DNA from: Anaerolineae bacterium
GTDB taxonomy: Bacteria; Chloroflexota; Anaerolineae; B4-G1; SLSP01
Length of the DNA: 46,890 bases
Assembly (NCBI GenBank): GCA_016931315.1
Contig: JAFGFB010000243.1
Location: forward strand, 1-46,890
Direction of reading: 5' to 3'
Program-made: the position numbers and the translations under genes
Notes under the pieces: model-generated
What the model saw: the letters and a program-made list of their open reading frames with translations, nothing else
Told to the model about the DNA's origin: nothing
Databases searched by the model: none
Shown here: positions 2,974 through 36,010 of the stretch, piece after piece
How the letters are laid out: every line of letters starts with the position of its first letter
How positions within the stretch are numbered: position 1 is the stretch's first letter

Positions 2974-3010
2974 TGTGATTTTTGCGGGCTGTGCGCCCGC
3001 AAAAATCACA
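2974..3010. repeat. Perfect inverted repeat / hairpin (16-bp arms, 5-nt loop)
   Basis: TGTGATTTTTGCGGGC-tgtgc-GCCCGCAAAAATCACA in the intergenic region after the phosphatase gene. Confidence 0.85.
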
Positions 3011-21099: not shown

Positions 21100-21136
21100 T
21101 TATTATACGCTCTCAGCAGCGTTTTTAATCACTTCA
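21100..21136 (-). promoter_or_regulatory. Promoter-like element A upstream of the ECF sigma gene
   Basis: Minus strand AGTGATTAAAAACGCTGCTGAGAGCGTATAATA, TATAAT about 37 bp upstream of the sigma ATG; shared with element B at 25610-25645. Confidence 0.55.
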
Positions 21137-24100
21137 CTATGGGTTGGATGCGTTCCAAAATGGGGGTGAAAATCTCGAAGAAAATGGATTTTTGGCGGTG
21201 AGGCTTTGCCCCACCGCCAAGAATCCATCAAAGAGAAGGTGTTGTCATGCCAGTCATCTTGCTTTTGCCCCAAAGTTGAAACGCACCCTGTGGGCTGCCA
21301 CATTGTAAACCCTTTCGCCGTGGCAAACCAAAATCGCCCTTGAGTGTCACCGGTAATCTTCAGAACATCGTTGGAGAGCAACCCATCGGCGGTTGTGAGG
21401 CTGTGCCATACATCGTTGTTGGGATCAAATGCGTAAACGCCGTTGGGGGTTGCGCACCATAGCTGGCTATCCGGCGCGATAAAGATGTCCCGCACACTGA
21501 TTGGGTCTGAGCCCTGAGGTGGCTTCACATCAACCCAGCGCTCGCCCTCAAGGTAAGCTAAGCCTGCGGCTGTGCCAATCCAGAGCCGTCTTTCTGCATC
21601 TACCGCTGCAGCATTGACCGGCGTGCTGGTGGCGATTGGTGCAGCCCAAATATCATTATCAAAGCGCACCACACCTTTTTCCGTGCCAAACCAGAGCGCT
21701 CCTTGTGAATCTATGGCAATTGTTCGGATAGTACGCCCACCTAATACATCGGCGCGGTTCACTGTCATCCAGGTGTTGGTTGTGGTTGTCAGGCGACTTG
21801 CGCCGGTCAATCCACCTCCTGAACCGAACCAGATGCTGCCATCGGGGGTCGCTGCTACTGCATAGATGAAGGAACTTATCAATCCGTGCTGGACCTCGAG
21901 GTGATTCCATTGCCCCCCATTCACCTGTAGCGCACCACTGCCACTTGTGCCAGCCCAAATAGTGCCTTTATTATCTGCTGTTAGCGCCATGATGTTGCGA
22001 TTGGGTAAGCCTTCGAAGGGCGTTAGCATCGTCCAGCGGTTGCCATCAAAAGTGCTGAGATTGCTGTCCGTTGCTACCCACAGGCGTCCTTTTGTATCTT
22101 GCACCAGTGCAGGAACGGGGGCGCTGTTCACCGTTTGGTAATGTTGCCATAGCCCGGTATTGCTCTGCGTTTCTTGCGTGAGACCAAACCAGGGGCGTTC
22201 TTCCGCGGTCATGATGAGGGCTACGCTGTCTGGCAATTCACTAAATGGACGTGTGCCGAACCAGCGATGTACGGCCGCGTTGATATCAGCCGGGTAGCGT
22301 GACTGGTTCTGAATGGTGACATCGGCGATATAGGTGATCCAGCCGCTGCTATCGAAGCTGCTGATTCCATCGCGAGTGCGCGCCCACACTATGTTATTCT
22401 CCGACAGGGTGAGGGTTCGTACATAGTCATCAGCCATTCCATCACCGCGTGTGACCCACGTCATCTTTCCCGGTGTTGTGGCCTCAAGGATGGCAATCCC
22501 TGAACCCCAGGTGCCGAACCAGGTTTGCCCTTGTGTGTCGTTGGCAATGCTGGTGACCCAAATTCCAGCCAGTGTTGGGAGACTTTCCCATTCGCTCCCT
22601 ACCAGGTGAGCGGCTCCGCCCTCGCCGCCTACCCAAATGCCACCGGCGCGATCCACGGCAACGGCATAGAGATTGTTGATGGGGCTTCTGCTGAGCGTTT
22701 GCCAGTGTTCGCCGTCGAAGTATGCAACGCCGAGCGCAGTCGCTGCCCACAGCTGACCATCGGGTGCAAGTGCTAGCGCGCGGGCAATAGGATGAGGCAG
22801 CCCTTGTGCCTGCCCGAAGTTTTGCCAGTGTGTGCCATCGAAGCGGCTCACACCGCCCTGTGTCGCAACCCAGATATTCCCCATGGCATCAGGTTGAATG
22901 GCATAAACTGTGTTGTGGATGAGTCCATCCGCTGTGGTGTATCTCACATAGCTGCTTGTGATGCTATCCCAGTGGACCACACCGCCGTTGGTCGCAACCC
23001 AGAGCGACTCGCCTATCTGGGCATGATTCAGTGGGCGCGGGCTGGACGTAAAAGCCCGTAGCTCTAGGGGGAGAAAGACCGGCGCTGTTCCGCGGGCATC
23101 ATCTTCAGGATTGAGGGGATGAGTTCCCCGTTGCACTTCGACGCCATCCTTCACACCGCCAAGGTCGGTGTCTCCGTTCATGGGAGAAGTCTCAAAATAC
23201 CCGTGGACTTCCCCTCCATCGCTAAGGTCGTCATGATCAGTGTCCCATTCGAGCGGGGCGACGCCGCGGTGGAATTCGTCGAGATTGCTCAGGCCATCGC
23301 CGTCAAGGTCCTTCTGTGCATCGCTCACGGCGCTATGTGTGCCAAAAGTCTCTTCCCAGATATCTGGCAGTCCGTCGCCGTCGGTGTCGGCGCCTTTGCC
23401 TTCCACCGTGAGCACCAACTCGACCTGACTTTGGGGTGAAATTTGTTGCACTGTGGGCGCACTGGTTGCGATTAACACGCGCGTGTGATAGCGTCCTGGG
23501 GCAGTGAGGCGCCGGTACCAGCTGCTATAGATGCCGTCGTCGGCAAGCCCGTCGCCGTTCAAGCCATCATCATGGAGGGTGAGCGTATTCGTCGCGCCAT
23601 CAGGATGTTCTATCATGGCAATGATTTGAACTCCTGTCGTGTCTGGTCGGTGCGCTGTATGACTTGCCATCAAGAGCACCGGTTCCCCAAGGCCTGGTGT
23701 GGCCCTCGAAAGATTCACGTTGAGGGCAGGCGCCGCGGGCGTGTGAGGATTGCTCTCGGGCACGCTGATGCCGGCATCGAGGTGGGCGTGTTGCCCTAAA
23801 ACTGTGCATTCTACTGCATAGCGGCCTGTAGGAAGCCCTCGTGGCACTGCAATTTCGAGTAAGTAGGTACGGCCCATGTTCCACACGGTCAGTACGGGTC
23901 GGTTTTGGCCGTTGATGGCGACTTCAAAGTGGGCCGTGCTAAGCCCTTGCATCGGACTGCCATCTGAGCGTTCCACAATGACTTTGATGAACCGCCTTTG
24001 TGGGTCACTGTGTTTTACAGGGAGAGAAATGGTTTCATCGGGCAGCTGTACCCTTACCTGCAATGGCGGTAGTTGGGTAATGCCCGCGCCCCAGAGCGTA

Positions 24101-25500
24101 TCCGCCCCAGGTAGCCCCCGGTCAACTGCAAAGGCTATCAATTGCGCTTTCACCTCTTCGACCGAGGCTCTCCTGTGTTCCGGTCGGCTGAGCAGCAATG
24201 CTGCCATGCCGGCGACGTGCGGGGCTGCAGCTGAGGTCCCTCCGAAACCGTGGGGTCCATATTCCGGTGAAGCTACGGAGATGTAACTGTAGCTGCTCAG
24301 ATCTGGCTTGATGCGTCCATCGGCTGTAGGACCGCGGGAACTGTAGGGGACAAGGTCTCCGGTCATGATATGGACTGCGCCAACTGTGAGCACGCTTTGT
24401 GCATCGGCGGGTAGTCCAAGGCTCCCTTCGGGCGTGATGTGGGCTGTAAGAGCAGCATCCTCACCGACAACGAAGAGCTTGAGCGTATGGTTTTGTGTGA
24501 AAGCCGGATCACGCCGAATGTGAATCTCGTAAATTCCATCAAAACGGGGGGAGAAGGTAAGGCGTTGTATAGGGGCGCCCATGGCATTTCTTTGTGTGCT
24601 GCTATGCGCGATTTCTGTGCCCGCCGGATCGAAAAGATACAGCTCATAATTGGAAGTACCGATGGGTTGGAACGGATCATTACCCCAATCATCCCATGCG
24701 AGGGTGATCTCGGTGGTCTTGCCTTGATTCAGGCGCACCGGTAGAGTCTCGTTGACAATTCCTGTGCGCGTGCGTCCAAATTCGTGCCAGTTATCGCCAT
24801 CGGTATCGAGAAATGCGCCTTGATAGTGTTGTTGGGCATAGTTGCCGGCGCTTTTGATGAGCAACATTCCTGTACTGCGGGCTTCCTCGAGGAGAGGGTA
24901 GAGGGGCACGGCGCTCTCGGCGACACGTCCACTGCCATCGCCGCGTCCTGGTGAGAGGGTGGACATGGAGATTGAGACCACGCGCACGTTTTCGTGTTGT
25001 AGGAAATCCAGGACAGCCTCGAGCGTGTTAACGAGGTTGTCCACTTGAATGAGATAGAGCTGCGCATCCGGGGCGATATCGTGGATGATCTCGGCGCACG
25101 CAACACCATGGGAGCCGGTGCTCTCTAGCAGTGTTTCGAAGCTGCCCTTGCCCGTCATAAAGCGCCGGGTGATGATGCCGGCGGGTAGTTCTCCCTCTGC
25201 AATACGCTCGGCGAGGCCCTTGAAGTTCTCATCAATGACGGCGATTTTGACTCCTGCTCCTCGATAGCCTGCTGCATGGTATTCACTGGCGCCTATCGCT
25301 GCCAGGGCTTCAGTCTGAATATGACCACCGGTGTTGCCGGGGTGTGGAGTGATTTCGGCTGGCAGCACAGCTGCGCCAGTCTCAATTTCGAGCACACATG
25401 CCGGGCAGCGATTATCCCGGACGAGGGTCAACGTGAACAATCCCACCAACAGCACCAGTCGTCTGATGTGGGATAATCGTTGACCTTGCAATGCTTTCAT
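21103..25500 (-). CDS. Secreted S8 (subtilisin-like) protease with Ca-binding (TSP3-like) repeats and a Reg_prop-type beta-propeller
   Basis: Catalytic motifs KIAVIDENF, STGSHGVACAEII, GGTSAAAPHVAGMAALL; DTDGDGLPDIWEETFG; many WVATxxGVxxFDGxxW repeats; N-terminal signal-like segment. Confidence 0.9.
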   Translation of the reverse strand: MKALQGQRLSHIRRLVLLVGLFTLTLVRDNRCPACVLEIETGAAVLPAEITPHPGNTGGHIQTEALAAIGASEYHAAGYRGAGVKIAVIDENFKGLAERIAEGELPAGIITRRFMTGKGSFETLLESTGSHGVACAEIIHDIAPDAQLYLIQVDNLVNTLEAVLDFLQHENVRVVSISMSTLSPGRGDGSGRVAESAVPLYPLLEEARSTGMLLIKSAGNYAQQHYQGAFLDTDGDNWHEFGRTRTGIVNETLPVRLNQGKTTEITLAWDDWGNDPFQPIGTSNYELYLFDPAGTEIAHSSTQRNAMGAPIQRLTFSPRFDGIYEIHIRRDPAFTQNHTLKLFVVGEDAALTAHITPEGSLGLPADAQSVLTVGAVHIMTGDLVPYSSRGPTADGRIKPDLSSYSYISVASPEYGPHGFGGTSAAAPHVAGMAALLLSRPEHRRASVEEVKAQLIAFAVDRGLPGADTLWGAGITQLPPLQVRVQLPDETISLPVKHSDPQRRFIKVIVERSDGSPMQGLSTAHFEVAINGQNRPVLTVWNMGRTYLLEIAVPRGLPTGRYAVECTVLGQHAHLDAGISVPESNPHTPAAPALNVNLSRATPGLGEPVLLMASHTAHRPDTTGVQIIAMIEHPDGATNTLTLHDDGLNGDGLADDGIYSSWYRRLTAPGRYHTRVLIATSAPTVQQISPQSQVELVLTVEGKGADTDGDGLPDIWEETFGTHSAVSDAQKDLDGDGLSNLDEFHRGVAPLEWDTDHDDLSDGGEVHGYFETSPMNGDTDLGGVKDGVEVQRGTHPLNPEDDARGTAPVFLPLELRAFTSSPRPLNHAQIGESLWVATNGGVVHWDSITSSYVRYTTADGLIHNTVYAIQPDAMGNIWVATQGGVSRFDGTHWQNFGQAQGLPHPIARALALAPDGQLWAATALGVAYFDGEHWQTLSRSPINNLYAVAVDRAGGIWVGGEGGAAHLVGSEWESLPTLAGIWVTSIANDTQGQTWFGTWGSGIAILEATTPGKMTWVTRGDGMADDYVRTLTLSENNIVWARTRDGISSFDSSGWITYIADVTIQNQSRYPADINAAVHRWFGTRPFSELPDSVALIMTAEERPWFGLTQETQSNTGLWQHYQTVNSAPVPALVQDTKGRLWVATDSNLSTFDGNRWTMLTPFEGLPNRNIMALTADNKGTIWAGTSGSGALQVNGGQWNHLEVQHGLISSFIYAVAATPDGSIWFGSGGGLTGASRLTTTTNTWMTVNRADVLGGRTIRTIAIDSQGALWFGTEKGVVRFDNDIWAAPIATSTPVNAAAVDAERRLWIGTAAGLAYLEGERWVDVKPPQGSDPISVRDIFIAPDSQLWCATPNGVYAFDPNNDVWHSLTTADGLLSNDVLKITGDTQGRFWFATAKGFTMWQPTGCVSTLGQKQDDWHDNTFSLMDSWRWGKASPPKIHFLRDFHPHFGTHPTHSEVIKNAAESV
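21146..21288 (+). mobile_element. MITE-like element, copy A (143 bp), inside the 3' end of the S8 protease ORF
   Basis: Ends GGATGCGTTCCA...TGAAACGCACCC; central hairpin ATGGATTTTTGGCGGTGAGGC-ttt-GCCCCACCGCCAAGAATCCAT; right half aligns over 65 bp with copies B and C; imperfect 7/9 flanking repeat. Confidence 0.8.
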
Positions 25501-30223: not shown

Positions 30224-30262
30224 AGGGATTTTGCATTTGGAAAAGCCGTACGCAAAATCCCT
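30224..30262. promoter_or_regulatory. Inverted repeat upstream of the Gfo/Idh gene, possible operator
   Basis: AGGGATTTTGC (30224-30234) and GCAAAATCCCT (30252-30262), perfect 11-bp arms with 17-nt spacer in the divergent promoter region. Confidence 0.45.
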
Positions 30263-30324
30263 TCAAAAATCCTGCAACTTATTGTATAATGTGAATGTTG
30301 CTTGTCAATGATTGAGCCATCATT

Positions 30325-30487
30325 GGGTGCGTTTCAGAATGGGGGCGACGATCTCAAACGCCCCTACGGGGCGTAGAATGAAATTGATTTTTGGCGGAGG
30401 GGCTTTGCCCCTCCGCCAAAAATCAATCAAAAGAAAGGCGTTGGCGTGATAATCGTCTTCTTTTTGCCCCAAAGGTGAAATGCACCC
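30325..30487 (+). mobile_element. MITE-like element, copy B (163 bp), with perfect 9-bp target-site duplication
   Basis: TIRs GGGTGCGTTTCA / TGAAATGCACCC; perfect 21-bp hairpin ATTGATTTTTGGCGGAGGGGC-ttt-GCCCCTCCGCCAAAAATCAAT; flanked by GCCATCATT at 30316-30324 and 30488-30496. Confidence 0.9.
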
Positions 30488-30604
30488 GCCATCATTGACT
30501 GTTTGATCGCCTTGTGTTCACGCGACCTTGATCTGGTTTTTCTCGGGAATTTGGTTTCAGTCACAGTCACCCATAAATCAATCTCATCTAGCGAGGGAAA
30601 GGTA

Positions 30605-35884: not shown

Positions 35885-36010
35885 GGGCGCGTTTCAAAGG
35901 AGAAAATTGATTATTGGCGGTGGGGCTTTGCCCCACCGCCAATAATCAATCAAAGAGAAGGTATTTGCATGTTAGTCATCCTGCTTTTGCCCCAAAACTG
36001 AAACGCACCC
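35885..36010 (+). mobile_element. MITE-like element, copy C (126 bp)
   Basis: TIRs GGGCGCGTTTCA / TGAAACGCACCC; hairpin ATTGATTATTGGCGGTGGGGC-ttt-GCCCCACCGCCAATAATCAAT; lacks the left-arm spacer present in B. Confidence 0.85.

Follow-up and report, generated by a model that had tools for sequence, protein, structure and literature searches.

A hairpin-bearing MITE family inserted beside promoters in Anaerolineae and probably mobilised by an ISKra4-type insertion sequence

Insertion upstream of promoters, accompanied by direct repeats (DRs) of 8 or 9 bp, has been published for the transposase superfamily to which the ISKra4-type insertion sequences (IS) belong (PMC3942029). Within the p-MULT 4 branch, this targeting was described for the ISKra4 group and not for the two-ORF ISMich2 group, and the published cases have promoters on both sides of the element (PMC3942029). 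In p-MULT 3, TnGBS and ISLre2 elements insert in one orientation, placing one of their ends some 16 bp ahead of the -35 box of sigma-A promoters (PMC3942029). Among miniature elements (MITEs), the Correia, Chunjie, QMITE and BrickBuilt families share with the element studied here their short, non-coding and largely intergenic character, their terminal inverted repeats (TIRs), their duplications and their high copy number (PMC10969869); the searched parts of that review describe neither promoter-upstream targeting nor loop inversion, and the inversion that it reports for Correia elements concerns the whole element, unlike the loop inversion seen here. Finally, work on template switching at hairpins has ascribed compensatory stem changes and inverted loops to switching between the two arms (PMC8794818).

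The element at the centre of this analysis, copy B, is a MITE, a non-autonomous transposon of the non-coding type, and lies in a window consisting of the whole 46,890-nucleotide stretch of Anaerolineae DNA that was analysed (Table 1). The first-pass annotation had reported 12-bp TIRs, a perfect 21-bp hairpin and an exact 9-bp target-site duplication (TSD), and direct reading of the sequence confirmed all three: the order is GCCATCATT, GGGTGCGTTTCA, the interior, TGAAATGCACCC and again GCCATCATT, with 11 of 12 positions matching between the TIRs. Folded as a single DNA strand, copy B has a z score of -10.6 against shuffles. Its neighbours are a gene for a Gfo/Idh/MocA oxidoreductase on the minus strand and one for a LysM-domain protein on the plus strand; these labels stood, but the glycosidase part of the original LysM label had no Pfam match. 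The earlier suggestion that the element could affect either promoter can now be made specific, since copy B precedes the Gfo/Idh -35 box by 16 bp and follows a putative LysM promoter. Because this putative plus-strand promoter lies at 30262-30290, the hairpin would be present in the LysM leader. An ordinary terminator role is not favoured, given that the plus strand has its T-tract 5' and its A-tract 3' of the GC stem; a scan did call a terminator-like site on the minus strand. Plasmid and phage collections contained no similar DNA, and a full-text literature search for the TIR letters returned only papers that seemed, by title, to be unrelated. REP palindromes with a RAYT were ruled out, the elements being bounded by TIRs and TSDs, and neither GTAG nor CGTC lies directly beside the copy B stem.

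Table 1. Positions of the MITE copies, their parts and neighbouring promoters, and of the hairpins of a second repeat family. Positions refer to the window unless a locus is named.
Feature	Position	Strand	Remarks
MITE copy A	21146..21288	+	143 bp, shortened; decayed duplication TATGGGTT/TGTGGGCT
MITE copy B	30325..30487	+	163 bp; L end 30325, R end 30487
Left TSD copy GCCATCATT	30316..30324		9 bp; read from sequence
Right TSD copy GCCATCATT	30488..30496		9 bp; exact match to left copy
Left TIR GGGTGCGTTTCA	30325..30336	+	L-type end; pairs with IS right end
Right TIR TGAAATGCACCC	30476..30487	-	R-type end; pairs with IS left end
Central perfect 21-bp palindrome	30383..30427		Stem 30383-30403 / 30407-30427; TTT loop
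Minor hairpin ACGCCCC-TAC-GGGGCGT	30358..30374		Nearer the L end
Gfo/Idh promoter TTGACA-N16-TACAAT	30281..30308	-	-35 box 16 bp from copy B L end
Putative LysM promoter TTCAAA-N17-TATAAT	30262..30290	+	Copy B would fall in the 5' leader
MITE copy C	35885..36010	+	Internal deletion; L end 16 bp from TTGCCC-N16-TAAAAT
Second-family hairpins	2974-3010; L004:30-72; L007:1852-1894; L038:1273-1317; L039:1285-1329; L047:1612-1656

Copy B belongs to a high-copy family. The window's own genome (G000) is a 4.35-Mb draft of 330 contigs, 89% complete, and it and the two congeners that carry the family (G002 and G003) are all fragmented draft metagenome assemblies. The 12-mer end GGGYGCGTTTCA occurs exactly 127 times in G000 and the reversed control pattern not once, so the ends are not due to chance. 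There are dozens of copies in each of the three genomes, the number in G000 being a lower bound (at least 40 scored among 186 DNA-search candidates). The family is high-copy in two of four congeners, and searches of the other two and of another 15 genomes within the family and order (17 relatives) gave no match. Element length is mostly 161-164 bp, too short for a transposase gene. We collected 90 TIR pairs from stretches of the three carriers, including four composite spans over tandem pairs; 88 of the 90 combine one L-type with one R-type end, and their flanks show an exact 8-bp duplication in 43 cases, an exact 9-bp duplication in 3 and a duplication with one mismatch in 18 more. The 9-bp duplication originally reported therefore holds for copy B, but the usual duplication of the family is 8 bp, and 9 bp is occasional.

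Two further copies, A and C, lie in the window. Copy A has its L end towards a minus-strand gene for an ECF sigma factor, with a weaker promoter match, and the promoter beside copy C precedes a formyltransferase gene, also on the minus strand. A 1465-aa ORF (window 21103-25500, minus strand) ends in codons that run through copy A, and the C-terminus of its product may be partly element-derived. Elsewhere, tandem pairs in head-to-tail, same-orientation arrangement were seen in L155, L157, L163 and L187; the gap is 17 bp in L163 and 7-8 bp in the other three, which would fit renewed use of the duplicated target. At one locus, L024 in G000 and L090 in G002 have a flank in common, which may reflect one old insertion or two. 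Short elements with like TIRs and different interiors were found in L073, L074, L075, L080, L084, L102, L105, L107 and L111, which come from other Chloroflexota contigs and one IMG/VR contig, and related MITEs may be widespread.

The first-pass annotation had proposed that relatives might retain empty sites with a single copy of the target. Orthologs of the LysM protein are present in G002 (91% identity) and G003 (90%), and at this one orthologous locus, the only one compared, the element is absent from both congeners, with the start of the Gfo/Idh gene in place on the far side. Empty sites were found in both, although the junction sequence has diverged too far for a letter-perfect single target copy to be recognised. 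The TTGACA-N16-TACAAT promoter is conserved in all three genomes, including the two in which the locus lacks the element. The reading of copy B as a non-autonomous transposon is supported by these empty sites, by the TIR-bounded, TSD-flanked copies and by the IS with the same TIRs described below.

When the flanks are read outward from the L end, they show a TTGACA-like bias at positions 16-21 and a TATAAT-like bias at 39-44, and the R side shows neither. Scored as at least 9 of 12 matches at an offset of 13-17, an outward-facing sigma-A promoter is present on 44 of 87 L sides versus 2 of 87 R sides, a window and threshold chosen after the positional signal had appeared; 200 shuffles gave a mean of 0.8 and a maximum of 4 promoter-positive sides, and other L-side windows gave 0-3. 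Even with this post hoc choice, the signal lies far beyond what the controls give. Roughly half of the L sides fall below the threshold. The copies are mostly intergenic, often with an outward ORF near on both sides, as would be expected if the promoter excess at the L end merely reflected the survival of elements in DNA between genes, with no targeting; such survival would not, however, produce a signal that is confined to one side and held at a fixed offset, and we regard this explanation as extremely unlikely. Judged by the flanking sequences, insertion is instead targeted, in one orientation, with the L end some 15-16 bp upstream of predicted sigma-A -35 boxes. We found no promoter-targeting MITE in the literature searched.

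No transposase had been seen in the window, and the first-pass annotation had suggested a search for a transposase gene bounded by the same TIRs. That search was successful, yielding IS elements of 1438, 1450 and 1474 bp, all of them outside G000. A scan of GTDB genome contigs with the TIR pattern returned 12 contigs, of which 11 bear the titles of Chloroflexota lineages and the last is called just a bacterium, and two of these (L106 and L110) contain IS elements with the same ends, 1438 and 1450 bp long and with two ORFs each. The ORFs match NF033572, the ISKra4-family transposase model; ORF2 alone scores 193 and 191 bits, under a cut-off of 205 bits that applies to the whole protein. The third IS, of 1474 bp and with one in-frame TAG, comes from G040, a member of the same family as G000, and its ORF2 exceeds the cut-off at 232 bits when the TAG is read through. 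Complete or near-complete copies with the same asymmetric ends are thus present in other Chloroflexota. In the carrier congeners, pieces alone were assembled, comprising an interrupted left end (G003:C388) and right ends on contigs that stop inside the transposase (G003:C47, G003:C12, G002:C133 and G002:C161), and no assembly from the genus contains an intact copy. In G000, TIR pairs 650 to 2700 bp apart turned up only with two mismatches in one or both ends. The junctions of the complete copies in L106, L110 and G040 show no clear duplication. The transposase ORFs of L106, L110 and L112 overlap at a T5C5 run, and ORF2 is in the +1 (or -2) frame; the frame change of the ISMich2 group has been published as -1 (PMC3942029). 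This partner IS is less than 30% identical to the annotated plasmid relatives that were found.

The MITE resembles these IS at both ends, and the match extends past the TIR: its R end matches the left end of the G040 IS at 24 of 26 bases, and the L end in the window matches the right end of the G002/G003 IS at 21 of 26. The IS also share its placement. Six right ends were scored, at offsets of 14-16, and promoter matches were 12/12 in L106, 11/12 in G003:C12 10/12 in G040, 9/12 in G002:C161 and 8/12 in G003:C47 and G002:C133; at the right end of L110 a promoter is absent, by eye, from the expected place. The MITE has therefore very probably been moved by an ISKra4-type transposase, and from the shared ends and shared targeting we infer mobilisation in trans by the IS. 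Another, unseen transposase with similar ends could instead have moved it, the ISKra4-type IS being related in its ends only. A search of G000, an 89% complete draft, with NF033572 and two transposase proteins as queries found no ISKra4 transposase, and the likeness of MITE and IS past the 12-bp TIR spans just some 14 more bases. Agreement with the ISKra4-type IS nevertheless extends to both ends and the asymmetry between them, to the 8-9 bp duplications expected of the superfamily and to the promoter geometry, which is found at the corresponding end, and an unseen mover seems to us very unlikely.

With mobilisation by the ISKra4-type IS as the preferred reading, the family can be set beside the described groups. 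Like ISKra4 and ISMich2 (p-MULT 4; PMC3942029), it has a partner transposase that matches NF033572, duplications of 8-9 bp and G...C-terminated inverted repeats; unlike them, the MITE has no transposase and the partner joins two ORFs with one-sided promoter targeting. The two-ORF layout suggests the ISMich2 group, and the promoter-upstream insertion suggests the ISKra4 group (PMC3942029). Because two ORFs are combined with a one-sided promoter signal, the IS described here may represent a lineage of its own. A further likeness is to TnGBS/ISLre2, which also insert in a fixed orientation with one end some 16 bp ahead of a sigma-A -35 box, but the partner transposase scores lower on the ISLre2 than on the ISKra4 model, and the inserted element here is non-coding and 163 bp long.

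The central hairpin was followed through an alignment of 72 copies. In the main stem, 97.5% of cells are paired, and at 16 of the 21 pairs both arms have changed, with the arms co-varying as Watson-Crick pairs. With both stems taken together, none of the 500 shuffles and none of the slid controls reached the observed value in any of the five covariation measures, although kinship among the copies inflates the comparison with the shuffles. Arms mismatch at 4.0% within copies versus 14.3% between copies. Among the loops, AAA occurs in 26 copies and TTT in 24, and reverse-complement pairs are found for other loop sequences as well (TTC/GAA, CTT/AAG and TGC/GCA). L170 and L181 differ solely in the loop (TTT/AAA), as do L200 and L202 (TTC/GAA), and copy B differs from L002 in the loop (TTT/AAA) and at two other positions. 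The members of each of these three pairs are separate insertions, because their flanks have no similarity. Taken together, arm matching and the nearly 1:1 ratio of loop orientations fit DNA template switching between the arms. Loop inversion would then be frequent, at an apparent rate that is unusually high: in reconstructed rRNA histories loop inversions were few (PMC8794818), whereas recent copies of this one family carry the two orientations at close to 1:1.

Two other accounts of the hairpin were weighed. It could be under selection, as a functional RNA or as a palindrome bound by a protein, with the loop differences being ordinary mutations, and the strong covariation, the level of pairing in the main stem and the existence of comparable hairpins in other repeats of these genomes would all suit such selection. 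G-U pairs are, however, rarer than Watson-Crick double changes, exact reverse-complement loops occur in near-equal numbers even in copies that are otherwise identical, and Rfam has no match within the window. We consider selection with ordinary loop mutation unlikely as an explanation, although selection on the hairpin and template switching are compatible and not exclusive. The near 1:1 orientation could also be an artefact of short-read assembly at palindromes, as all three carriers are known from fragmented drafts in which several contigs stop inside the hairpin. A 45-bp palindrome is, however, shorter than usual reads and final k-mers, and the pattern recurs with four different loop pairs in three assemblies, which makes an artefact quite unlikely. 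Loop orientation has no bearing on arm covariation or on promoter targeting.

Hairpins of similar form occur in other repeats. A second repeat family, with other flanks, has a T-rich outer and a GC-rich inner stem (Table 1), and its copies in L004 and L007 share flanks in the same orientation and have loops, TGC and GCA, that are reverse complements. A third hairpin type (GAGTGTTTTTCGCTGCCGCGC or similar) was found at L033:1870-1914, L038:1380-1424 and L161:466-510.

As a whole, we think it highly likely that element B is a MITE derived, with loss of the transposase, from an IS of the ISKra4 family (Mutator-like, p-MULT 4). The IS transposase would act in trans on the MITE ends, its staggered cuts would give rise to the 8-9 bp duplications, and it would be guided to promoters by promoter DNA or by RNA polymerase, so that the MITE would land beside a working promoter and leave it intact but cut off from upstream sequence. 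The central palindrome would be kept matched, and its loop inverted, by template switching at the level of DNA and not by selection on RNA. A bolder extension, which we hold only tentatively and think unlikely, is that inversion of the palindrome keeps pace with transposition of the element, which would make the family a natural record of template switching or of the processing of hairpins during transposition, and that a promoter-reading Mutator-like transposase sets these hairpins upstream of host promoters, where they would be insulators that alter regulation at many loci.

The many near-identical copies of the family would make it possible to measure how often arms are corrected and loops inverted in a bacterial palindrome, with a bearing on the question of how hairpins stay perfect. 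For the organism, insertion of this kind would offer a route by which promoters are severed from upstream control and yet left undestroyed, and a MITE that has inherited promoter targeting would show, from sequence alone, where promoters are likely to lie in a lineage that is uncultured.
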